Positions 2,190 to 63,545 of a stretch of DNA of 64,000 nt are shown in pieces. The first letter of the stretch is position 1. Each line of letters opens with the position of its first letter. Origin of the DNA: a virus; IMG/VR virus record IMGVR_UViG_3300033153_013547, positions 1 to 64,000 of that record, one strand, 5' to 3'. Both the position numbers and the translations under genes were made by a program. The notes under the pieces were generated by a model. That model was not told where the DNA came from. It was given only the letters and a program-made list of their open reading frames with translations, and did no database searches.

Positions 2190-2495
2190 TTAACCTCCAC
2201 AAGATATACCATGTTCTTCTAAATATCTTTCAGCATCAATCTTAGCCTTATACAAGCAAAACGCAACAACAGGTTGTTTGATCATTTGCCATTTATCATT
2301 CATGATCTCTTTATAAATCTCTTTATAAATTTTCCATCTACATTTTTTTTCACCAGCATAACTTTCTATCACTACCAATCCTCTACAATTGTCAGGCCAA
2401 ACAAAATAAAGATGACAAAATGCTTCGTCTGATTTTTCTATCCATTTACAGGATGTACGTGGCATACTAGAGGATTCCATACTTACGTGTTCCAT
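2190..2495 (-). CDS. PC-KAKLAAE paralogue family member, 101 aa
   Basis: The C-terminus reads CLYKAKIDAERYLEEHG, matching the signature of at least seven other small proteins in this window (35.4-37.3, 55.4, 60 and 63.2 kb). As in the relatives, an N-terminal segment with an internal tryptophan (TSCKWIEKSDEAF) precedes a variable beta-rich centre. The function is unknown. An AGAAG site precedes the first ATG; ATGs at 2480 and 2465 are alternatives. Confidence 0.75.
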   Translation of the reverse strand: MEHVSMESSSMPRTSCKWIEKSDEAFCHLYFVWPDNCRGLVVIESYAGEKKCRWKIYKEIYKEIMNDKWQMIKQPVVAFCLYKAKIDAERYLEEHGISCGG

Positions 2496-15009: not shown

Positions 15010-15339
15010 TCACGCATTACTACTCTCTTTTGTTATATCACGCTTAAATGCCTCAATTTCGCGCACCGCAGTCCGCTTACCGTGTTCCGCATCACGACAG
15101 TATTTCCAATGCGCGTGGCATAGTTTATTGTCATATATCAGAGTGGGCCAAGTAAAATACATCATTACCCCTGGCTCGTCAGCAGAATCAAAATGCCAAG
15201 CGAGCGTCATTCGTAGTTCCCAATTACAAACATCACCTTTTCGTTCATAAACCGTCGCTTCAATGATCGCCCCGCCAACGTGCGTACAATAAGTATAAGT
15301 ACCGCGATCTTCTGTCCACTCATCAAAGACTGTCACCAC
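15010..15339 (-). CDS. tandem paralogue B, 109 aa
   Basis: This is the second copy of a tandem duplication with 15323-15655. Shared blocks include VGGAIIEATVY.RKGD, LRMTLAW.FD, AHWK.CRD..HGK and EIEAFKRDITKE. The function is unknown; the protein is beta-rich in its first half. The start is a GTG with GGAGAA just upstream. Both copies have higher GC than the phage average. Confidence 0.8.
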   Translation of the reverse strand: MVTVFDEWTEDRGTYTYCTHVGGAIIEATVYERKGDVCNWELRMTLAWHFDSADEPGVMMYFTWPTLIYDNKLCHAHWKYCRDAEHGKRTAVREIEAFKRDITKESSNA

Positions 15340-15655
15340 CGTTCTCCTTTGTTATATCACGTTTGAATGCCTCAATTTCATGCATTGCAATCAGCTTGCC
15401 GTGTTTTACATCACGACAACATTTCCAGTGCGCGTAGTACATTTCATTGTCATGTACCGGAGTAGGCCAAATAAAGCTTGTCATTGCTCTTGGTTCACCG
15501 GTAAGATCAAAATACCAGGCAAGCGTCATTCGTAGTTTCCAACCATGGGAATCACCTTTTCGCTTGTAGACTGTTGCTTCAATGATCGCACCACCAACAC
15601 GCGTACGATAGGTGTGGGTGCCACGATTTTCTGCCCACTCATTGAAAACCGTCAT
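15323..15655 (-). CDS. tandem paralogue A, 110 aa
   Basis: Upstream copy of the pair with 15010-15339, roughly 60 percent identical by eye over the full length. GAGGAGGAAGCG precedes the ATG at 15655. Its end overlaps the start of the second copy by 17 bases, indicating a neat tandem gene duplication. No family is recognised. Confidence 0.8.
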   Translation of the reverse strand: MTVFNEWAENRGTHTYRTRVGGAIIEATVYKRKGDSHGWKLRMTLAWYFDLTGEPRAMTSFIWPTPVHDNEMYYAHWKCCRDVKHGKLIAMHEIEAFKRDITKENGGDSL

Positions 15656-15714
15656 CGCTTCCTCCTCTCCAGTCTCACCCAAAAACTAAAAATGTTTTTT
15701 ACTTTCTAAATCGC

Positions 15715-30571: not shown

Positions 30572-30901
30572 TCAGTCCTTTCTTGCATTTATGAATTGAC
30601 AAAGTGTACGACCTTCTTCCATCCTTTTATGTGCCATATCCCTAATCATATCCAAAATGATTGGTTCAAGATCAGCAAGAGGTAGGTACTGGTCTTCGTA
30701 ACATTTGTTCAAACTCGTGAGATTTACCCAATAGGGATTTTGTTTATTATGACGTTCTAACTTTTGAAGAAGAATATCTATTTCTGTATCATTGCTCTCG
30801 TTGACATCATATCCAACGGAAATAACAAGCCTCATTGCTTCTGCCACACCAACGATACTCTCCCAAAAATATTCATCGCCATCCCAGTCAAAACTCACCA
30901 T
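30572..30901 (-). CDS. tandem paralogue pair member 2, 109 aa
   Basis: Related to the next upstream gene (30911-31240): both begin with a W-x-x-x-GD-EY-type block, share A..M.LVI.V.Y in the first third and end with a helical segment plus an N-rich tail. The first residues are FDWDGDEYFWESIVGVAEAM. The function is unknown. Confidence 0.75.
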   Translation of the reverse strand: MVSFDWDGDEYFWESIVGVAEAMRLVISVGYDVNESNDTEIDILLQKLERHNKQNPYWVNLTSLNKCYEDQYLPLADLEPIILDMIRDMAHKRMEEGRTLCQFINARKD

Positions 30902-30910
30902 ATTTATGCC

Positions 30911-31240
30911 TCAATTTTCGTGCGAATTCAAAACTTGGCAGGCATGTCGCCCAAAGTCCTTTATAATGTTTACTATTTCTCTAGCTTCACTCAAGCAATA
31001 AGAAGTAAGGCTATCTAAGGGTAGGTGTCCTCCATAGAATTTGCCTCTTGTTGCAATATCTTTCCAATAACCTGAATAAGACAGGCATTGGAAAATAATT
31101 TGCACCAAGGTCTCAGGTCCATCATAATCTTGATAGGTAACAACAACAATCAGTGCCATCCTTTCAGCAGCAAAAATTGTAGACTGATATTCATTGTCAC
31201 CTGTTTTTTCCCACTCCAATTGATTAGACTTCTTCACCAT
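30911..31240 (-). CDS. tandem paralogue pair member 1, 109 aa
   Basis: Paralogue of 30572-30901. The ATG at 31240 lies inside the last codons of the RNA ligase gene, so the two are probably coupled. It carries ERMALIVVVTYQDYDGPETL and CLSEAREIVNIIKDFGRHAC. No family is recognised. Confidence 0.75.
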   Translation of the reverse strand: MVKKSNQLEWEKTGDNEYQSTIFAAERMALIVVVTYQDYDGPETLVQIIFQCLSYSGYWKDIATRGKFYGGHLPLDSLTSYCLSEAREIVNIIKDFGRHACQVLNSHEN

Positions 31241-32372
31241 AAAAGACTTTCCTTCTGTCTTTCTCTTCTTGAAACTCAAGAACAATATCTATAAGATCAT
31301 TGGTCTCAATTAGACCTATGACATGTTTAATTTTACATGCTCTTATCCATTCATAAGCAGATGATATTTGTTCCTTACGCAAACAAAACAAAGCACCAGA
31401 ATAGGGGTAATTCATTGCCTCAAAAGCAAATTCCTTATCTTCTTTTATCATTTCAATAGAATGATAAGTTTCTTCTATATCTGCTACTAAATCTGCTATT
31501 CTTTGTCTTACAAGATCAAAGGCTACTGCCAATCCAGGAAAAAACAAGGCAAGATCATCACTATTTCCCTTGATCACTAAATCTATGATATCTTTTAAGG
31601 ACAAATTGTTCTTAATCCTTGTACCTCTTATGTAGCTTAGTGTTTTGAATTTCAGCCTGTTGAAGTTTTTATCTACAGCAACAAATCCTTCTGCCTGAGT
31701 TCCCATGATATTTTCACAGGCTGTTATTACACCTTCAGTAGTTCTAATATTCTTGTGTAATTTGACACATTCCCAACCAAATGTATTGGCAGCAGTATCA
31801 GGTAATTGTTCTAAATAAGGGTAGCCATGAGACATTTTTCTCACCCCATGAAGAACTATACGTGATCCTTTGTGCCTTACAAGCACTATATTAGCTGGAG
31901 TCATCAATTCAAACATGTAAGTAAATCCAGGCACAGGTAGTTTGTAACCAAGAGTTTTCCATGTTTCCCAGAACAATTCTTCAAAAGTTATTTCCCAACC
32001 TAAAACTCTTCCTCGTGCATCAGCCATACCTAAAGTGCTAACATTCCATTGATCATTGTAATACCACAAGCAAACCATTGATCCATCTACTTTTTCATAG
32101 ATGGAAACATTATTCCAGTCTAGTGCAACAGCATTAGGTTCCCCATAATTGAAGAATTTTCTGTAAGGAAAACAAACAGGCAACCAATCATTGTCTGCAT
32201 CTAACACTATACCTCTGGCATCTTGAACTACAGGATTTTCCATTGGGGAGTGAAGCGTATGATATTTAAACAAATACAGATTAGGAAATATAGAGTGTAT
32301 ATTATGCATTATTCCTAACTCATCAAGTTTATCTAAACCATGATGTCTAATAAAATTGACTATTTCTATCAT
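31224..32372 (-). CDS. T4 Rnl1-type RNA ligase
   Basis: The 382-residue enzyme joins or repairs cut RNA ends, for example tRNAs cleaved by host anticodon nucleases. The nucleotidyltransferase motifs are ARGIVLDADNDWLPVCFPYR (52-71), motif I YEKVDGSM (92-99, nucleophile Lys94), FELMTPANIVL, motif IV EGFVAVD and motif V RLKFKT. The order and spacing match the Rnl1 family (RNA_lig_T4_1). Its stop overlaps the following gene by 17 bases. No separate polynucleotide kinase gene is visible in the window. Confidence 0.93.
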   Translation of the reverse strand: MIEIVNFIRHHGLDKLDELGIMHNIHSIFPNLYLFKYHTLHSPMENPVVQDARGIVLDADNDWLPVCFPYRKFFNYGEPNAVALDWNNVSIYEKVDGSMVCLWYYNDQWNVSTLGMADARGRVLGWEITFEELFWETWKTLGYKLPVPGFTYMFELMTPANIVLVRHKGSRIVLHGVRKMSHGYPYLEQLPDTAANTFGWECVKLHKNIRTTEGVITACENIMGTQAEGFVAVDKNFNRLKFKTLSYIRGTRIKNNLSLKDIIDLVIKGNSDDLALFFPGLAVAFDLVRQRIADLVADIEETYHSIEMIKEDKEFAFEAMNYPYSGALFCLRKEQISSAYEWIRACKIKHVIGLIETNDLIDIVLEFQEEKDRRKVFYGEEV

Positions 32373-32915: not shown

Positions 32916-33626
32916 TCAAACTACTAATTCTAATATTTTAGACACAGCAAGACTGCCAATATCAAACTGAGCATTAAATATTTGTATTGCATCTATGTCT
33001 ATTGTGTCATTTGTTTTAGTTGTATTGTCAAGTGATACATAGAGATCTGTAACATGTATCTTAGCCAATCTGGCTATCAATAACTTTATGATATGTGGAG
33101 TAATTCTTTCACCTGTCAATTGGCTTACATAGTTAGATATTATCAATAGTTTTGTTTCCTCTAAAACTATTGGCAACACTGCATCAAACAATACCAATGC
33201 CATATCATGTATTTGTCCTGCTAACATCTTGAAGATTGATCTTATCTTCATATGATCAGGCAGCTGTTTCCATGTATGTGAGTCATATTCTATAACAGCT
33301 TTTAGTAGAAGTGTACGTAAAGGCACTCCATTATGTCCAAATATCACTTTGGCTGGCATCCATTCATCCCATTTATCACATGTAGAGATGATAACATTTG
33401 CATCAATCTTTCCACTTTTTGTGCCAAAATCCATTCCAAAAATGTTTGTGGGCACATTTAGATGCATCATATGTGCTTCTATATTATCTTTTGAAAACAA
33501 ATTCTTTTCACTCATCAGTGAAAGCAAATAATATATGTAACTTATTATTTGTTTTGCTGTGAGACTAACTATCATAGTTATGCCAAATGATACTAAGATC
33601 ATTGCTATCCAAATTGTCTCTGTCAT
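32916..33626 (-). CDS. N-terminally membrane-anchored hypothetical protein, 236 aa
   Basis: Residues 1-25 form a hydrophobic segment (MTETIWIAMILVSFGITMIV) and the remainder is a helical soluble domain. It starts in an ATGA overlap with the small gene upstream. No catalytic motif is seen. Confidence 0.75.
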   Translation of the reverse strand: MTETIWIAMILVSFGITMIVSLTAKQIISYIYYLLSLMSEKNLFSKDNIEAHMMHLNVPTNIFGMDFGTKSGKIDANVIISTCDKWDEWMPAKVIFGHNGVPLRTLLLKAVIEYDSHTWKQLPDHMKIRSIFKMLAGQIHDMALVLFDAVLPIVLEETKLLIISNYVSQLTGERITPHIIKLLIARLAKIHVTDLYVSLDNTTKTNDTIDIDAIQIFNAQFDIGSLAVSKILELVV

Positions 33627-33748
33627 TTTACATCCTTGTTTTTAGGTTTGGCAACCAAAATATCAGACAATATGTCTTTTTCTATAGTAGCAGTTATAGA
33701 TTGTGTAACTACAGAATTGTCTAACTCATTGATCAATATTTCTTTCAT
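33623..33748 (-). CDS. small protein coupled to both neighbours, 41 aa
   Basis: The frame overlaps the end of the proteasome-like gene by 23 bases and the start of the 236-residue gene by four bases (ATGA). It encodes a helical peptide (EILINELDNSVVTQSITATI). It probably serves translational coupling or is a small partner. Confidence 0.55.
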   Translation of the reverse strand: MKEILINELDNSVVTQSITATIEKDILSDILVAKPKNKDVK

Positions 33749-34295
33749 TATGTTTTTTACTAACTTTTGTAGCCAAAATCTTGAATGGTGGTTTTACAGA
33801 ACCAGAAAAATGAGTAGCAGCTTTTAGTGCTGTTTTGATTCGAGTTTTAGGTGACTGAGAGAATGTACTATAAAGTGATCCAAGAGCAAAATTCTCCCCA
33901 GAACCACAAGCTGCATAATCTTCACGAAAATGGGCATATTGATAATCATTATCTATACTATAAAGATGATGTGTCCAGGCAATCAAGAATGTTCCACATT
34001 CTTTTATACCATAGCTAGTTTTCCCAAAGTTATACTCTACAAATAGATCTCTAATTTGCTTGATCAATTGAAAAATATGTTCATCAGGAGAACTTTCTTC
34101 CGGTGGTTTTAGCTTGTTGTGCCGGAGGATTTGGATCATACGATAACTACTTGTGCAACCGATCACATAGATTCCATTACGGAATACTTTGGGATCAGTC
34201 CGTGCAATAACCTGATTTCGATTATCATCACAGGCAGCACTATCAGCACCAATATACACTTGGTTTCTATCACGTAATCCCACAATACATGTCAT
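33726..34295 (-). CDS. proteasome beta/HslV-like Ntn hydrolase
   Basis: The 189-residue protein begins MTCIVGLRDRNQVYIGADSA, so cleavage of Met exposes Thr2 as N-terminal nucleophile, and continues with the ADS..D and FRNGIYVIGCTSSYRM blocks typical of the 20S/HslV beta fold. The GSG stretch (AACGSGENFALGS) in the second half is also typical. Related proteins occur in other phages and are usually annotated as proteasome-like. The target is unknown; the Ub-like cassette and Clp unfoldase in the same genome make regulated proteolysis a reasonable inference. Confidence 0.9.
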   Translation of the reverse strand: MTCIVGLRDRNQVYIGADSAACDDNRNQVIARTDPKVFRNGIYVIGCTSSYRMIQILRHNKLKPPEESSPDEHIFQLIKQIRDLFVEYNFGKTSYGIKECGTFLIAWTHHLYSIDNDYQYAHFREDYAACGSGENFALGSLYSTFSQSPKTRIKTALKAATHFSGSVKPPFKILATKVSKKHNERNIDQ

Positions 34296-34747
34296 AATAA
34301 ATCTCCATCATATCCGGTATTTGTTTCATCCAAAAAGTTTATGTCTTGCCAGAAATTGGTTATGCTGAAGGCATCATAAATACTGCCTATGACTTTGAAC
34401 CCATAGAAGTCTGCCAATGAATAAATGGGATATCTATCATAATGGTTAGTTCTTACTCCCCATTGTCCTCGTCTCTCACTCCAAAACACTTCGTTAGGAC
34501 ATGAAAAAATATTTGTAATATCACCTTCATAAATTTTTTGTCCATTAATATCCAAGAATCCAGTAAATTGTCTAATAGTTATAGGAACGATAGGTAGCCA
34601 CCGATAATATGGCTGATTGGTAGCATCATGGATAAAAGTATCTAGTGCGAATATGAAGTGTCCAAGACTCGTAATTGCTAAACTACCCTCAACTAAGTAA
34701 CCATTATCTTTACGATTACCACGGAAGATGACTTCCCTATTGATCAT
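34292..34747 (-). CDS. YopX family protein
   Basis: The 151-residue protein has IFRGNRKDNGYLVEGSLAIT, IRQFTGFLDINGQKIYEGDI and IGSIYDAF, the YopX consensus. It overlaps the proteasome-like gene by four bases. Base composition matches the AT-rich background, unlike the YopX gene at 15843. Confidence 0.88.
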   Translation of the reverse strand: MINREVIFRGNRKDNGYLVEGSLAITSLGHFIFALDTFIHDATNQPYYRWLPIVPITIRQFTGFLDINGQKIYEGDITNIFSCPNEVFWSERRGQWGVRTNHYDRYPIYSLADFYGFKVIGSIYDAFSITNFWQDINFLDETNTGYDGDLL

Positions 34748-34766
34748 TACAAATGTTTCTCCTTAC

Positions 34767-35399
34767 CTAATTTCCTACATCCAAATTTATACGTGTGAAA
34801 TCACAAACCTGTGAGGACACATTATACACCTTTGTGTTCTCATATGCCCTGTTTTGTCCTTTTTGTTCATGAACATGACCACATATGATCAGTTTATAGT
34901 CTTGAACATTCACCCCAGGAATGCCTATGGCAGTTTGCCAATTAACATAATCTACAGTATGTTTAGGTGGGCTATGAGAGAGCAAAATATCAGTAGGCAA
35001 TAATTTATTTGTCATAGACTTTATAGCAGCATCAGTATCCATAAATGCCCATTGATCAATCATAGCAGGAATATCTTCTGCTGATGACCACCAAAATCCC
35101 TGAATGCTTAAATTTCCAATATGAACTACTTCTAAATGTCCAAGCAAATATTTATTTACATATTCATATTTACTTGTAATTTCTTTATGCTTGAAAACAA
35201 GATCATGATTGCCAGGTATGAACAAAAGATGATCAACTTTCTTGGCAACATGCTTAAGAAAATCATTGAACAATGCTAAATCATTTTCTGTATGTAATTC
35301 ATAGTCACCTGCTAACAAAAGCAAATTACAGGCTGGTACAATAATAGGCAAGGGAAGCACCCCATGCCAATCTGATGAAGCAGCAATTGATATAGTCAT
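34767..35399 (-). CDS. calcineurin-like metallophosphoesterase
   Basis: The 210-residue protein has the ordered metal motifs SSDWHG (about 8-13), LLAGDYE (about 29-35), FIPGNHD (about 63-69), LLSHSPP and ICGHVHEQ. The compact form fits small phage phosphodiesterases rather than SbcD. GGACAGATCT precedes the ATG at 35399. The substrate (nucleotide or phosphoprotein) is unknown. Confidence 0.9.
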   Translation of the reverse strand: MTISIAASSDWHGVLPLPIIVPACNLLLLAGDYELHTENDLALFNDFLKHVAKKVDHLLFIPGNHDLVFKHKEITSKYEYVNKYLLGHLEVVHIGNLSIQGFWWSSAEDIPAMIDQWAFMDTDAAIKSMTNKLLPTDILLSHSPPKHTVDYVNWQTAIGIPGVNVQDYKLIICGHVHEQKGQNRAYENTKVYNVSSQVCDFTRINLDVGN

Positions 35400-35713
35400 A
35401 GATCTGTCCATGTTATTACATACTTATTACGTTCTGCATAATCTTTTACTTTCTGTTCAGCAATGAGTTTGGCTCTGTATATGCATGGTTGTGTACCACT
35501 GCCTTGGTACATGTCTTGATATGTACCAGAACCAATAAACACAGACCAGCATACTGAATTCATGTAGGTAGAAGCGTGAATATAACAAGTTCCATTTTCT
35601 TCTCCAACTGCTATAAATGGTGCTGAACATGAGAGTAGGAAGATTGCACGCATTGATTTACCATCTTCAACCCATTTACCTTCAAGTTTATTGCTTGCTA
35701 GCAAAGTTGGCAT
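35396..35713 (-). CDS. PC-KAKLAAE paralogue family member, 105 aa
   Basis: Third gene of a tandem trio (36017, 35719, 35396). It contains SNKLEGKWVEDGKSM at the start, WSVFIGSGTY in the middle and TQPCIYRAKLIAEQKVKDY at the end. It is the family member closest to 35719-36024. The function is unknown. Confidence 0.85.
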   Translation of the reverse strand: MPTLLASNKLEGKWVEDGKSMRAIFLLSCSAPFIAVGEENGTCYIHASTYMNSVCWSVFIGSGTYQDMYQGSGTQPCIYRAKLIAEQKVKDYAERNKYVITWTDL

Positions 35714-35718
35714 ATCAA

Positions 35719-36024
35719 TCAAAGTCCTTTACTACCTATTGCTATAGTACACTGATGAGACTTCGTATAATTTTTCAAATGCTCTTCTACAACTAATTTA
35801 GCTTTATGTACACACGGTTGTGTACCATTTCTTGAATATGCAGATGGACCTATAAATATAAGCCAACATATCTGATCTGAGTAGAGAGATGGAAAAACAT
35901 GACCATATCCTTTACGTCCATTAGATAATTCGAAATACCAAAATATAGAGCCTGATTCATTAGTGGTTTCCCTCCATTCGCCCATGAGCTCGTTATTTAT
36001 CAATTTGTTTGTTGTATTAGTCAT
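35719..36024 (-). CDS. PC-KAKLAAE paralogue family member, 101 aa
   Basis: Second gene of the tandem trio. It contains NNELMGEWRETTNESGSIFW near the start, CWLIFIGPSAYS in the centre and TQPCVHKAKLVVEEHLKNY at the end. Start and stop overlap the neighbouring copies by a few bases, so the array arose by tandem duplication. Confidence 0.85.
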   Translation of the reverse strand: MTNTTNKLINNELMGEWRETTNESGSIFWYFELSNGRKGYGHVFPSLYSDQICWLIFIGPSAYSRNGTQPCVHKAKLVVEEHLKNYTKSHQCTIAIGSKGL

Positions 36025-36337
36025 AGCTTTTTACTGCCCTAAATGCTTTGATCCATACTTCAGCAGCCAACTTTGCTTTATGAAGACATAACTCAGAATC
36101 ATTATGTACAAATGCCCATCTATGATAATGTAAGCCAGGTGGTGACTTGCCAAAAAGGTCATAATAATATTCTCGTGATATGTATACTCTCCATACATAT
36201 GATGATAAAATAACCATAGGTCGAATTACAATCTTTCCTTTTATATTAGGAACCCAAGTAAAACTCATAACACTATCAAAAAAGGAACCCTCGGTCCACT
36301 TACCCATAAATTTGTTATTTGTTAGTTTGCTTGCCAT
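36017..36337 (-). CDS. PC-KAKLAAE paralogue family member, 106 aa
   Basis: First gene of the tandem trio. It contains NNKFMGKWTEG, VWRVYISREYY and the family end ELCLHKAKLAAEVWIKAF. GAGGA precedes the ATG at 36337. A basal role is unknown; the family is discussed in the findings. Confidence 0.85.
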   Translation of the reverse strand: MASKLTNNKFMGKWTEGSFFDSVMSFTWVPNIKGKIVIRPMVILSSYVWRVYISREYYYDLFGKSPPGLHYHRWAFVHNDSELCLHKAKLAAEVWIKAFRAVKSYD

Positions 36338-36338
36338 A

Positions 36339-36719
36339 TCAATCATTCCTCATTTTCTCACCTATTCTTTTGCCTATCTCAAGAGCTTCATCTGCCGTGG
36401 GAAATACTCTGCCGAAAATTGGATGGATAGCACCAAATAACTTCTGCATCTTTATTCTTGTATCATTATCATAATACCCAGCATAATAACCAATATTTAA
36501 CAATTCATTTTTCGTGGCTTCTTCTACGGAAATTGAATGTATTGTCACAGCATAATTGACCAAGAGATCAAAATACTTTTTTGCTTGTTCTTCTGTCTCA
36601 ACAAAAGAACAAGCAGGATCATATACCTGTCCTATAGTCAAAGTGGCTTTTTGTTCTGTTGCAAGTTCAACAAGTTGGCAAGCTTCACTAAAGTTTTTTG
36701 CTTTTTCAGATAATGTCAT
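36339..36719 (-). CDS. hypothetical protein, 126 aa
   Basis: A helical, soluble protein of unknown family. The ATG at 36719 has AAGGAAG upstream. The open frame extends into the tRNA-Thr gene, which shows that the upstream part is not coding. Confidence 0.75.
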   Translation of the reverse strand: MTLSEKAKNFSEACQLVELATEQKATLTIGQVYDPACSFVETEEQAKKYFDLLVNYAVTIHSISVEEATKNELLNIGYYAGYYDNDTRIKMQKLFGAIHPIFGRVFPTADEALEIGKRIGEKMRND

Positions 36720-36755
36720 AGCAACTTCCTTATCATCCAAGTAAAAAATAGGTAA

Positions 36756-36826
36756 GCCTCTAGTCAGAATCAAACTGACGACGGTAGTTTACAAGACTAC
36801 TGCTTTATCAACTAAGCTATAGAGGC
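36756..36826 (-). tRNA. tRNA-Thr (anticodon UGU)
   Basis: The minus strand folds as a full cloverleaf of 71 bases. The acceptor arms GCCTCTA and TAGAGGC pair, the anticodon stem GTAGT/ACTAC encloses CTTGTAA with anticodon TGT, and the T arm is GTCAG-TTTGATT-CTGAC. No CCA is encoded. It reads ACA and other Thr codons that are common in this AT-rich genome. Confidence 0.93.
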
Positions 36827-36880
36827 ATAAAAGCAAAGTTATTATATTCCTATTGGCAAAAAGACATGATCAACTTCTAT

Positions 36881-36901
36881 TTCGGACACCTCATGTCCGA
36901 A
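36881..36901 (-). terminator. 8-bp perfect hairpin
   Basis: TTCGGACA and TGTCCGAA form a perfect stem with a five-base loop between the tRNA-Thr gene and the broken paralogue. It could process or terminate the tRNA transcript. Confidence 0.5.
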
Positions 36902-36917
36902 TTATTCAATTCATCTT

Positions 36918-37000
36918 TTATAGTCCAAGTTGCTTTCTTAGCAAGTTCTGCAGTTCTCTTATACCTTAGCAGCCAGCATGGCTTTATATTTACAAGACAT
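36918..37000 (-). pseudogene. broken end of a PC-KAKLAAE family gene
   Basis: An ATG-initiated 13-codon frame reads SCKYKAMLAAKV and then stops, while the next frame continues RELQNLLRKQLGL. This matches the family signature PC-x-Y-KAKLAAE followed by a short helix, with a frameshift. No N-terminal part is visible, so it is a remnant. Confidence 0.55.
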
Positions 37001-37016
37001 AAGATCATGTACAAGA

Positions 37017-37253
37017 CTATATTTCTTTATTCTCATTTGGCTTCACACCATATTTAGCCAGACACTCCTCTGCTGCTAATTTTGCTCTGTATAAACAGGG
37101 TTCTTCACCAGACCCCTTCTTTTTGCCATCAAAATATATGTTCCAATATGCTGGACTTATTTGGCTAGAACAAGTTTTTTCATTGTAACTATCCCAACAA
37201 GCATAGAAGTTTATGAATATGTATCCACATAATGATAATTCCACTAACAACAA
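37017..37253 (-). CDS. PC-KAKLAAE paralogue family member, 3' part clear
   Basis: The C-terminal half reads SPAYWNIYFDGKKKGSGEEP, then CLYRAKLAAEECLAKYG, a full family signature. The first codon is a TTG inside the overlap with the next gene, and no ATG is available downstream, so the true start is uncertain. The N-terminal GKW-type block is not recognisable; the gene may be truncated. Confidence 0.65.
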   Translation of the reverse strand: MLLVELSLCGYIFINFYACWDSYNEKTCSSQISPAYWNIYFDGKKKGSGEEPCLYRAKLAAEECLAKYGVKPNENKEI

Positions 37254-37431
37254 GCCATATTCCTTCTGTCAAGTGTGGCTTATTTCTCAACATTTTTGGT
37301 TCATTTAGATCTAAAATATAATTGATCAAAAATGACGAGCCACATATTACAATGAAAAGACCAAAGACAATAGGCACCCATACTAAAACAAGGGAGCAAA
37401 TATACCATACAATTTGTAAATTGATTACCAT
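37189..37431 (-). CDS. small membrane protein, 80 aa
   Basis: Two hydrophobic segments (about 6-32 and 55-75) joined by a short polar loop suggest a double-spanning membrane protein. No family is recognised. Confidence 0.65.
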   Translation of the reverse strand: MVINLQIVWYICSLVLVWVPIVFGLFIVICGSSFLINYILDLNEPKMLRNKPHLTEGIWLVVSGIIIMWIHIHKLLCLLG

Positions 37432-37467
37432 GTAAATACTTCCAGATATGTTTATTTAGTTTTTAGC

Positions 37468-37749
37468 TCAAGAAATATTCTTAGACTTTTTTCTCAAGAT
37501 ACAAACCATTTCTTCATCAATTTTATCCTGATACTTCAAAATGGTTTTAGCACCATGGGAAGAAATACAGAACTTGTCATTCCCCATGTCTGTCAATATG
37601 TTTTTATAGCATAACTTTCTCAAAGGAGATGAATCTGCCATTGTCATTCCAGAAGCATCAAGAATAATTTCATTGTTCTTGATCAATGCTGTCCTTCTAT
37701 CATTCAGTAGTAAGATCATAAGTTTAGTTTGTGATTTAGTAAGAGTCAT
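37468..37749 (-). CDS. hypothetical winged-helix-like protein, 93 aa
   Basis: The order helix (TKSQTKLMILLLNDRR), helix, helix, beta-like GNDKFCISSHGAKTILKY could be a winged helix, but I cannot assign it to a family. It overlaps nothing and lies 9 bases after the stop of the next gene. Confidence 0.65.
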   Translation of the reverse strand: MTLTKSQTKLMILLLNDRRTALIKNNEIILDASGMTMADSSPLRKLCYKNILTDMGNDKFCISSHGAKTILKYQDKIDEEMVCILRKKSKNIS

Positions 37750-37758
37750 TTATACCCT

Positions 37759-38307
37759 CTACGATAATTGTCCTGATTTTATGAAAGCAGAAATGGCTTT
37801 CATACTAACTTCTGTCTTTACAACAGGATCAAGAGTGTGCAAAAGCCTGCCAAGAGAATTTCTAACACTATTAGTTTGATCTTTTGAAATACTAAGAGCA
37901 TTGATTGCAGTAATTCTACCAGCAGCATCTAGCATTCTACAATATACTGTTGGTAAAGCATAAGGAGTATTTTCATGTTTTCCAGCATACATTGTATTAG
38001 TTCTGTTGTCATAGATAAAATCTACAAAGTAATCTTCTACTTTTTTAGTGTCCCTATTCCACAAAACTATAATTGCTACCATGGTGCTAAGGCTTACTGG
38101 TAACCCAGAAATATTCCAGTTACCATCAGAACGAAATATATTGACAAATGCCCTGGCTTCTTTTATGACAAGAGGACCATTAGCCATTTTGCTCATTCTT
38201 TTTCTGGCATTTCTAATAGAGGTACCATCAACAATGGTAGTTAGCTTACTAATCCTGGTTGGATCAGTAAGTTTGGAGATGGAAAACTTTATATTGCTAA
38301 AATCCAT
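37759..38307 (-). CDS. hypothetical protein, 182 aa
   Basis: A mixed alpha/beta soluble protein with a probable beta sheet core (NWNISGLPVSLSTMVAIIVL and KKVEDYFVDFIYDNRT). A GAGGC-type site precedes the ATG. No family is recognised. Confidence 0.75.
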   Translation of the reverse strand: MDFSNIKFSISKLTDPTRISKLTTIVDGTSIRNARKRMSKMANGPLVIKEARAFVNIFRSDGNWNISGLPVSLSTMVAIIVLWNRDTKKVEDYFVDFIYDNRTNTMYAGKHENTPYALPTVYCRMLDAAGRITAINALSISKDQTNSVRNSLGRLLHTLDPVVKTEVSMKAISAFIKSGQLS

Positions 38308-38316
38308 GGAAGCCTC

Positions 38317-38676
38317 CTAATAAAAACCAAAATCAGCATCTAGCTTTTCATCTATAAATTGTGCATAATTTCTAAGAAGAGAAACATATCTTATATCAGA
38401 CAAGAATCCTGCCATCATATATTTTATATTATCTATGTTAGTTTCAGACAAGACAGATGTGCGTAATAACATTGTGGCAATTCTCAAGTCTTCCAGTTCT
38501 CGTATTATGTTTACCCAGAAATCTACTTTTTCTTGATCTGAAGGGAGTGTTTCTGCAGCAGCACAAAGGTCTCTTGTCATAGAAATCATTTCTTCTGAGG
38601 GTCGTTCAGCTTCTTTAATACTAGTCATCATTTCAATGAATGTCATAACTAAAGCATCACTTGGCAACTGAACCAT
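38317..38676 (-). CDS. hypothetical helical protein, 119 aa
   Basis: An almost entirely helical, acidic protein. It lies between the SPOUT methyltransferase gene and the 182-residue gene. No family is recognised. Confidence 0.75.
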   Translation of the reverse strand: MVQLPSDALVMTFIEMMTSIKEAERPSEEMISMTRDLCAAAETLPSDQEKVDFWVNIIRELEDLRIATMLLRTSVLSETNIDNIKYMMAGFLSDIRYVSLLRNYAQFIDEKLDADFGFY

Positions 38677-44388: not shown

Positions 44389-44496
44389 TTACACTTTTTC
44401 TGGTTCATCTCGTTTTCTATACCAATCAGCCAAAGAATAAACATTTACATGATAACATGGTTGTGAATAAATATGTAGAATTGGGAAATTAGTCAT
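44389..44496 (-). CDS. small protein, 35 aa, truncated PC-family-like
   Basis: A clear TAGGAGAT site precedes the ATG by four bases. The middle YSQPCYHVNVYSLADWYRKR resembles the PC-x-Y/H-KAKLAAE signature in spacing, with the KAKLAAE part altered. It may be a shortened or decayed family member. Confidence 0.6.
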   Translation of the reverse strand: MTNFPILHIYSQPCYHVNVYSLADWYRKRDEPEKV

Positions 44497-55372: not shown

Positions 55373-55636
55373 TTATAGCAAGTCATGTTCTTCTACATAC
55401 TTTTGAACAGCCAACTTACATTTGTAAATGCATGGCTCAGAACCTTTTGCGAGCAAACCAAATCGAGAGCTAGATACTCTCCACTCTGGAGCCAATATAC
55501 TAATGGGATGACCCACAAATGTGATAATACGACCTATGGGTGACAGAAAATCAGCAAAGAAAAGAGGTGTGCCATTCAAGCCAAGCCTGCTTTCCCACAC
55601 AAGTGTTATCTCCATTTCACTATCTATCTTACTCAT
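55373..55636 (-). CDS. PC-KAKLAAE paralogue family member, 87 aa
   Basis: The C-terminus reads SEPCIYKCKLAVQKYVEEHD, a family signature with Cys for Ala. The N-terminal half is beta-rich (SEMEITLVWESRLGLNG) without the usual GKW block. No ribosome site stands out. Confidence 0.75.
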   Translation of the reverse strand: MSKIDSEMEITLVWESRLGLNGTPLFFADFLSPIGRIITFVGHPISILAPEWRVSSSRFGLLAKGSEPCIYKCKLAVQKYVEEHDLL

Positions 55637-59381: not shown

Positions 59382-59947
59382 AAAAAGGTATAGTAAGACC
59401 AAAAATCATCAAGATCAGCAATAGCCTGTTCCATTACTTGAGTATAGTCTTTGAGAGGACAATCTTCAATTGTAGCAATAGTAACAAGAGCTGCTTGCCA
59501 TTTTTTCAATTGATCAACAGAAAGTTCAGGAAAACAATCTTTCTCATCCTTGCCTTCTCTTTCTTTGTCAATCATTTCTTGAGTTGGTAAATGAGCATGA
59601 TCAATAAGTTTTTGGAGATTATGATATATGTTCCAACCAAGAAAATCACAATAATTCCAATGATCAGGATCAGCATATCCTCTGGTGGCTCTTTGCCAAG
59701 CCCACAAAAAGGGCATAAATGGATACCAGAGAAAGTCAAATATGTCTGTGGCAGACATCCAACTAAGAGGATGGTTGTCAGCAAATTTTGAACGCAAAAT
59801 TAGTCTAAACCATATAAAGGCAAATACCAGTTGCCAGTTAGCAGAATTGAACCAAGTTCTCCTAAAACTTGTTTCACCCATAGTAAAAACGTTAGCTAAA
59901 TGTGTTTTAGGCATGGCAACTTTCTTAGTATCATTTGATGTCTTCAT
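59372..59947 (-). CDS. hypothetical protein, 191 aa
   Basis: Aromatic-rich, mostly helical: WQLVFAFIWFRLILRSKFAD, then DHWNYCDFLGWNIYHNLQKL. GGAGAACAA precedes the ATG at 59947. No family is recognised. Confidence 0.75.
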   Translation of the reverse strand: MKTSNDTKKVAMPKTHLANVFTMGETSFRRTWFNSANWQLVFAFIWFRLILRSKFADNHPLSWMSATDIFDFLWYPFMPFLWAWQRATRGYADPDHWNYCDFLGWNIYHNLQKLIDHAHLPTQEMIDKEREGKDEKDCFPELSVDQLKKWQAALVTIATIEDCPLKDYTQVMEQAIADLDDFWSYYTFLWD

Positions 59948-60461
59948 TTGTTCTCCATATTTTAGGCCAATTGCTGTATATTCCATCATCAGATAACTTA
60001 GGCAGTGGGCAGTCAGGTAAAATGCCTTGTTCAAGTGCATCCTGATACCTCTGGAAGGAAGCCAAAGTATATGGCTTAGGATAAGCATCATCAACCACAG
60101 GACAAATATTTACTGGACAATCAGCACAGCAAAACACTAATTCTACTTGAACTGAGGGTGAAGGAATAGTTTTTACCCGGATTGCTACACGAATACCTTT
60201 TTTGTCAGTCATGTTGATCCTCAACAAACATATATGAGAAAATTTTTCTACAAGTTGTTCAATAAATAACTTGACTTTATAGGGACAGAGTAAAGAATCA
60301 CCAAGCTCAATGCATTTGCCATTCACATCTATATGCCAATATGTTTTTGTTGCATCAATAAGGATATAGGCATGTCCTGATGATTTATCAGGTAATGTAA
60401 AATCCCAGTAAAAATCTCCAGAACCAGATTGCTTCCAATTACCTTTTAGTTTGGTGTTCAT
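59931..60461 (-). CDS. two-part protein: PC-KAKLAAE-like domain plus cysteine-rich domain
   Basis: The first 80 residues read KGNWKQSGSGDFYWDFTLPD, then LLCPYKVKLFIEQLVEKFS, matching the family. A second part (from MTDKKGIRVAIRVK) has CCADCPVNICP, a zinc-like cluster, and FQRYQDALEQGILPDCPLPK. This looks like a fusion of two originally separate genes. GAGGA precedes the ATG. Confidence 0.75.
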   Translation of the reverse strand: MNTKLKGNWKQSGSGDFYWDFTLPDKSSGHAYILIDATKTYWHIDVNGKCIELGDSLLCPYKVKLFIEQLVEKFSHICLLRINMTDKKGIRVAIRVKTIPSPSVQVELVFCCADCPVNICPVVDDAYPKPYTLASFQRYQDALEQGILPDCPLPKLSDDGIYSNWPKIWRTNEDIK

Positions 60462-60482
60462 CAATAATTCCTCTAAGCAGTT

Positions 60483-60800
60483 CTAATCAAATTCTTCATA
60501 CAACCACTCAGATTCTTTAGCCCTATCAACATGATTAATTATCATATTGTTGTTATTGTAAGATACTTTGAACAACTGCCAAGATTGATTGCTATCTCGT
60601 GGTATGTACCAATAAAGAGGGTTGTAGCCAAATTTTTCAATGAAACGACGAGAATATGCTGCATATCGTGAATTTTTAGATGTATTTTGCTCAAAGACAG
60701 CACCAAATTGATTATGAAATTGTTTGAGTGCTCCCCCAGACATAGGAGCACTCTGAATTGCTTTCCTAACCATATTGATCATCATAGATATAGAAATCAT
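60483..60800 (-). CDS. hypothetical protein, 105 aa
   Basis: A helical protein with FHNQFGAVFEQNTSKNSRYA and a basic middle. GGAGG precedes the ATG, which overlaps the end of the next gene (ATGA). No family. Confidence 0.7.
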   Translation of the reverse strand: MISISMMINMVRKAIQSAPMSGGALKQFHNQFGAVFEQNTSKNSRYAAYSRRFIEKFGYNPLYWYIPRDSNQSWQLFKVSYNNNNMIINHVDRAKESEWLYEEFD

Positions 60801-63224: not shown

Positions 63225-63545
63225 TCAATAATCATGATTATCCTCTATTTGTTGTTTCCATCTGAGCATGGCTTTTTCTGCAGCCAACTTTGCCTTGTAA
63301 ATACAAGGTTCAAAACCATGGAATGCAGGATCATCTACAGTTCCTAAGGGTATAGACCAAAGAGTTGTCTTAGTTCTACAAAATGATCGTTTGCTGAATA
63401 GTCGCCATGCCCAATTACTATCATGAGATAGGCCTCTCCAAACAATAGCAGCAACTTTTGATCCATCAGGCAAAGAAGTTACCCATTGCCATTCAAGCAA
63501 TACTGGTTTCCAATTACCTACTAATGATTTTGCTTTCTCAATCAT
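63225..63545 (-). CDS. PC-KAKLAAE paralogue family member, 106 aa
   Basis: It contains KSLVGNWKPVLLEWQWVTSL, WAWRLFSKRSF and the end FEPCIYKAKLAAEKAMLRWK, one of the clearest family signatures. GLSHD and SIPLGTVDD are variable parts. The function is unknown. Confidence 0.85.
   Translation of the reverse strand: MIEKAKSLVGNWKPVLLEWQWVTSLPDGSKVAAIVWRGLSHDSNWAWRLFSKRSFCRTKTTLWSIPLGTVDDPAFHGFEPCIYKAKLAAEKAMLRWKQQIEDNHDY

Follow-up and report, generated by a model that had tools for sequence, protein, structure and literature searches.

Giant phages are known to carry families of paralogous genes, for example families A–C of phage SPN3US, and arrays in which over 30 genes resemble one another (PMC5694885, PMC13282480). 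A large paralogue family is uncommon in a phage, and it is an obvious place in which to seek host-takeover or counter-defence proteins. Here, we describe a family of small proteins of about 100 amino acids with 11 copies in one viral record, where every copy is on the minus strand and within the first 65.2 kb. The source record is a virus of 261,124 bp, and the window, by which we mean the whole stretch of 64,000 nucleotides analysed, sits at its start. Because of the named genes in the window, which code for a tail-fibre-attachment/RNA-ligase protein, an ATP-dependent Clp-type protease, RNA-polymerase beta-like proteins, NAD- and ATP-dependent DNA ligases, an SbcC-like protein, and a helicase, the record is probably that of a tailed jumbo phage. 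Searches with PF17289 and phrog_2 gave no terminase match in the record itself, and the RNA-polymerase-like protein of the phage had no relative in IMG/VR and one weak match in phage records.

Some features of this gene content are worth recording in their own right. DNA ligases of both types, NAD-dependent and ATP-dependent, occur in the same phage (window 40750-42576 and 53642-55312, minus strand). The gene at 33726-34295 (minus strand), two genes away from a metallophosphoesterase gene, has a weak proteasome-subunit-like Pfam match (E 0.006, below cut-off). In the 182-residue protein at record positions 67700-68248, a Trp-containing N-terminal part precedes a stretch that weakly resembles the RNA polymerase alpha C-terminal domain, with a Pfam E of 4e-4 that misses the cut-off; the same phage carries the RNA-polymerase beta-like genes.

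A first, sequence-only reading had grouped eight genes of the window into one family, and leave-one-out profiles recovered each of them, so that their relationship holds. Named by their first coordinate, they are the following:

2190-2495, minus strand: family copy of 101 amino acids (leave-one-out E 1.7e-8)
35396-35722, minus strand: family copy of 108 amino acids counted from a TTG (leave-one-out E 2.6e-14)
35719-36024, minus strand: family copy of 101 amino acids, modelled (leave-one-out E 8.8e-18)
36017-36346, minus strand: family copy of 109 amino acids, first of an overlapping tandem trio (leave-one-out E 3e-12)
37017-37253, minus strand: truncated family copy (leave-one-out E 5.1e-9)
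55373-55636, minus strand: weakest full-length family copy, 87 amino acids, without G-x-W (leave-one-out E 2.5e-6)
59931-60464, minus strand: family domain, then a C-terminal part containing several Cys (leave-one-out E of the N-terminal part 1.2e-8)
63225-63545, minus strand: family copy of 106 amino acids, first of the second cluster (leave-one-out E 1e-7)

The ATG at 35713 is probably a likelier start for the 35396 copy than the TTG, and the ATG at 60461 is the likely start of the 59931 protein, whose family domain comprises residues 1 to about 77. Three additional copies lie outside the window in the same record, at 64276-64623, 64632-64877, and 64902-65195, and together with 63225 they make up a second near-tandem group. 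The copies are thus laid out in clusters at 35.4-37.3 kb and 63.2-65.2 kb, with singles at 2190, 55373, and 59931; within the first cluster, 35396, 35719, and 36017 follow one another with overlaps, in direct tandem as had been noticed.

Since any profile will recover the sequences that went into it, we relied on leave-one-out profiles, each built from the other ten copies and searched against the 1,268 ORFs of 80 kb. All 11 copies were recovered, with E-values from 2.5e-6 (55373) to 8.8e-18 (35719), while the best non-member across the runs reached E 0.054, and because every copy was recovered in this way the family is, on profile evidence, real, its weakest members included. Pairwise phmmer comparisons tied every one of the eight genes to one or more of the others, most weakly for 55373 (E 0.0035-0.007), and a motif matrix derived from the ten other copies scored the left-out 37017 at 33.5 bits, against a randomised maximum of 15.4 bits in a background of 15 Markov-randomised sequences. 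Profile searches of the whole 261-kb record returned exactly 11 matches at E<=1 and again at E<=10, with no family copy beyond 65.2 kb.

The window has other small proteins with shared Trp residues (15010/15323, 30572/30911, and 44758); these were tried as members and rejected, with hhalign probabilities of 2.7, 0.1, and 0.4%, respectively. They include paralogue pairs of their own: 15010-15339 and 15323-15682 (minus strand) form an overlapping tandem pair, 64% identical (dN 0.21, dS 0.94), less diverged than any pair of the family and amenable to a selection test, and 30572-30901 and 30911-31285 (minus strand) are adjacent paralogues, 29% identical and with no PHROG match. A separate dispersed pair is formed by window 60483-60800 (minus strand) and record 79144-79473 (E 4e-17), which have a weak Imm59-like Pfam match, below cut-off. 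Promoter-like sites in 33500-38500, as counted in a promoter and terminator scan, were about as frequent as in shuffled sequence (30 vs. 24.9).

The signature by which the family had been recognised was the right motif, but it was worded more strictly than the family allows. Two residues, the Cys at the start of the helix and the second Lys of K-A-K, are present in 11/11 copies, and the central Trp, the final Glu, a Tyr/His, and a Lys/Arg position are each kept in 10/11; G-x-W, on the other hand, is found in 8/11 copies and GKW or GNW in 5/11, the literal W-x-(I/V)-x-I also in 5/11, and the exact KAKLAAE in two (36017 and 63225). The 2190 copy, for example, has CKW in place of GKW, then W-K-I-Y, and C-L-Y-K-A-K-I-D-A-E. 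No set of catalytic-type polar residues is invariant, the C-terminal motif offering C and K only.

Two broken copies, at 36918 and 49588, and a mini-copy at 44389 had also been proposed, together with ongoing birth and decay of the family. In random sequence, 80 kb give 2.3 motif sites of at least 10 bits and 6.7 of at least 8 bits, so the best site for the first of these (37000, 9.5 bits) is within noise, whereas 49588 and 44389 are absent from the 40 best motif sites and gave no minus-strand profile match. By motif matrix and profile scans all three were rejected as chance, although the site at 37000, just downstream of 37017, is possibly a remnant given its place right behind a true copy. 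Only 37017 itself looks truncated: it keeps the C-terminal half, from about 37175, without the N-terminal block, no N-terminal profile match was found upstream of it, and the start of its ORF overlaps an 80-residue ORF (37189-37431) in another frame. With five tested pairs near or beyond synonymous saturation, and with both broken copies and the mini-copy dissolved, ongoing birth and decay finds no support in the sequences.

Pairwise identity among the ten copies other than 37017 is 13-39%; the closest pair, 64276/64902, is 39% identical and the remaining pairs 13-30%. Nei-Gojobori estimates for five chosen pairs (dS 1.06, 1.43, 2.69, and twice infinite; dN 0.66-0.81) are too saturated to interpret as selection values, so that they speak neither for nor against the arms-race role, for example as host-protein inhibitors, suggested in the first reading. 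Most likely, the copies, which are strongly diverged, go back to old tandem and dispersed duplications. Because ten copies with intact frames keep an aromatic/hydrophobic core and the helix motif despite saturated dS in the tested pairs, the family fold is, as judged from these alignments, under long-lasting purifying selection. Most other positions and the loop lengths diverge between copies, as does the net charge, which ranges from -1.3 to +7.7: 5/11 copies are negative at pH 7 (35396, 37017, 55373, 64276, and 64902), while 36017, 63225, 64632, and the N-terminal part of 59931 are basic.

The AlphaFold2 model of 35719, made with an eight-row alignment (pLDDT 79, pTM 0.72), has a short N-terminal helix (residues 4-9), strands at 17-19, 27-33, 38-45, 52-58, and 63-69, and a helix at 72-89. 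In the model of the 177-residue 59931 protein, placed first in its own alignment, strands at 7-12, 18-23, 29-36, 41-47, and 50-54 are followed by a helix at 61-75, with block means of pLDDT of 65-90 over the family part and values below 60 in the C-terminal half. The two of the 11 copies modelled therefore share a predicted five-strand beta-meander with a C-terminal helix, although both models were built on the same family alignment of window copies and hence are not fully independent. Unrelated folds, the outcome that would speak against a family, were not seen, as the predicted topology agrees between the two modelled members despite an identity of about 21-25%. Strands 1 and 4 carry the conserved Trp residues; the Cys immediately precedes the helix, which contains K-A-K-L-x-x-E. 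The fusion of one copy to a Cys-rich domain is borne out in part: 59931 is one uninterrupted ORF whose C-terminal part contains Cys, but that part is poorly modelled.

At E<=0.001, Foldseek found no match in BFVD for either model and none in the PDB for the 35719 model. VIA-align gave matches that all stay below Z 8, where, by the tool's own note, possibly only a common arrangement is meant. For the 35719 model, they included the MMOD inhibitory subunit (6d7k; Z 7.5, 62 aligned, 2.5 A), T7 Gp1.2 (7u65; Z 6.4, 71 of 83 aligned, 3.0 A), dsRNA-binding domains (Z about 5.0-5.7; 5cff 5.7, 4wyq 5.5, 4x8w 5.5), and the WGR domain 6f1k (Z 5.4). For the 59931 model, they included pieces of Mediator, CapZ, and arm-type integrase (Z 4.9-6.5), with the arm-type integrase domains 3rmp and 3jtz at Z 4.9, and neither MMOD nor T7 Gp1.2 was among the matches listed for it.

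Sequence searches with the 10 full copies gave no significant match in Pfam (best E 0.007, YfmQ, 16.5 bits against a cut-off of 22.9), nor in PHROG, NCBIfam, and PADLOC (best E 0.066, 0.16, and 0.027, respectively), and no homologue was found by sequence in the PDB. In IMG/VR, a single-protein scan with 35719 yielded none that was confirmed and a motif scan gave 0 matches; three matches of a motif scan of GTDB genomes were all chance once their frames were read. In tblastn of two copies against phage records the best E was 5 to 6, and profile searches found the family in 0/50 source records, taken from 50 of the 80 loci that have a Clp ATPase relative, and in neither of the whole records of phage G and Pf-WMP4, whose proteins gp343 and gp15, BFVD structural neighbours, were also rejected as relatives (hhalign 0.1 and 0.3%). 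The letter string KAKLAAE did not occur in the literature searched. By these searches, the family is without recognisable relative in PHROGs, Pfam, NCBIfam, PADLOC, the PDB, phage records, and IMG/VR; the negative profile searches had no positive control outside the own record, and near-identical records were possibly left out of the searched sets. Moreover, the phage has no close kin in these sets, the listed Clp relatives being 38-49% identical, so absence of the family elsewhere is to be expected and is no proof of uniqueness.

Most likely, the copies are diversified protein-binding accessory proteins. The fuller scheme that we tentatively prefer, with somewhat less than even confidence, is that of a lineage-specific one-domain family, multiplied by old duplications, whose copies would be stand-alone protein-binding modules, each modulating a different host or phage protein. 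On this view, duplications of both kinds, tandem and dispersed, would long ago have filled the first 65 kb of the jumbo-phage record with its eleven copies; the conserved Trps, Cys, and K-A-K-L-x-x-E would maintain the common core and pack the helix, whereas the outer surface, the lengths of the loops, and the net charge may vary freely; and in the course of an infection each copy would bind a different partner, presumably a protein, and so modulate a protein of the host or the phage. Binding proteins with different partners would be expected to combine a conserved scaffold with a surface that diverges, and identities of 13-39% with charges from -1.3 to +7.7 fit such a scaffold. Two fold matches, both below Z 8, are protein-binding inhibitors, namely the MMOD inhibitory subunit and T7 Gp1.2, an inhibitor of the host dGTPase; against this, dsRNA-binding and WGR domains score almost as well as the inhibitors, and the invariant Lys and the mostly conserved helix Lys/Arg could equally make ligand or nucleic-acid contacts. 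The main rival, to which we give a rather doubtful standing, is a nucleic-acid-binding domain (dsRNA-binding-like, WGR-like, or arm-type-like) regulating phage or host transcripts or the genome, as the dsRBD and WGR matches of the 35719 model, the arm-type matches of the 59931 model, and the basic copies would suggest; every Z, however, is within the range of common arrangement, five copies are negative, and the modelled order of five strands and then a long helix differs from helix, three strands, helix.

That the family consists of virion proteins, for instance head-interior and ejected ones as in SPN3US or phiKZ, has a precedent in large virion paralogue families of jumbo phages, with up to 20 members in SPN3US (PMC5694885), but we consider it improbable, given that PF12699, which recognises SPN3US family A, matched none of the 10 full copies at E<=1 and that the named window genes are mainly those of replication, transcription, protease, and phosphatase rather than of the head. 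Neutral or selfish duplication remnants with little function are more improbable still: 37017 has indeed lost its N-terminal half, but in 10/11 copies the frame is intact and the core still conserved at identities of 13-39% and with saturated dS in the tested pairs, a state that would need purifying selection on the fold over a long time. A stronger form of the protein-binding proposal, in which the eleven copies are a kit of inhibitors of host proteins or defences on one scaffold, each with its own target, the 59931 fusion adding a second functional part, in a jumbo-phage lineage without close database relatives, is in our opinion unlikely. If the copies truly have different targets, they would offer a natural phage scaffold for making inhibitors, and the family, which is small and clean and whose extent within one record is fully defined, comes with a fair core model, so that its copies can be individually expressed and assayed.

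Compared with known proteins, T7 Gp1.2 is likewise a small phage protein, whose structure aligns over 71 residues with the predicted sheet-plus-helix (Z 6.4, below 8), but without profile-level sequence similarity (hhalign probability 0.06%). The dsRNA-binding and WGR domains resemble the predicted fold in that their antiparallel sheet packs against a C-terminal helix (Z about 5.0-5.7, again below 8), whereas the family has extra strands, no PDB sequence match, and a charge that is not consistently basic. Similar in predicted shape are the small uncharacterised phage proteins A0A6J5NMI0, A0A5P8D3K8, and M4SQ96 of BFVD, with Foldseek probabilities of 0.99-1.00 and TM-scores by target of 0.61-0.82, but with E of 0.05 or worse and 8-16% identity. 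With the paralogue families of giant phages (PMC5694885, PMC13282480), the present family shares many diverged copies and a genome above 200 kb; the SPN3US families, as described there (PMC5694885), are virion proteins, in contrast to the present proteins of about 100 amino acids without Pfam match. In summary, this is a new family within a known kind of expansion, and not a new kind of system.
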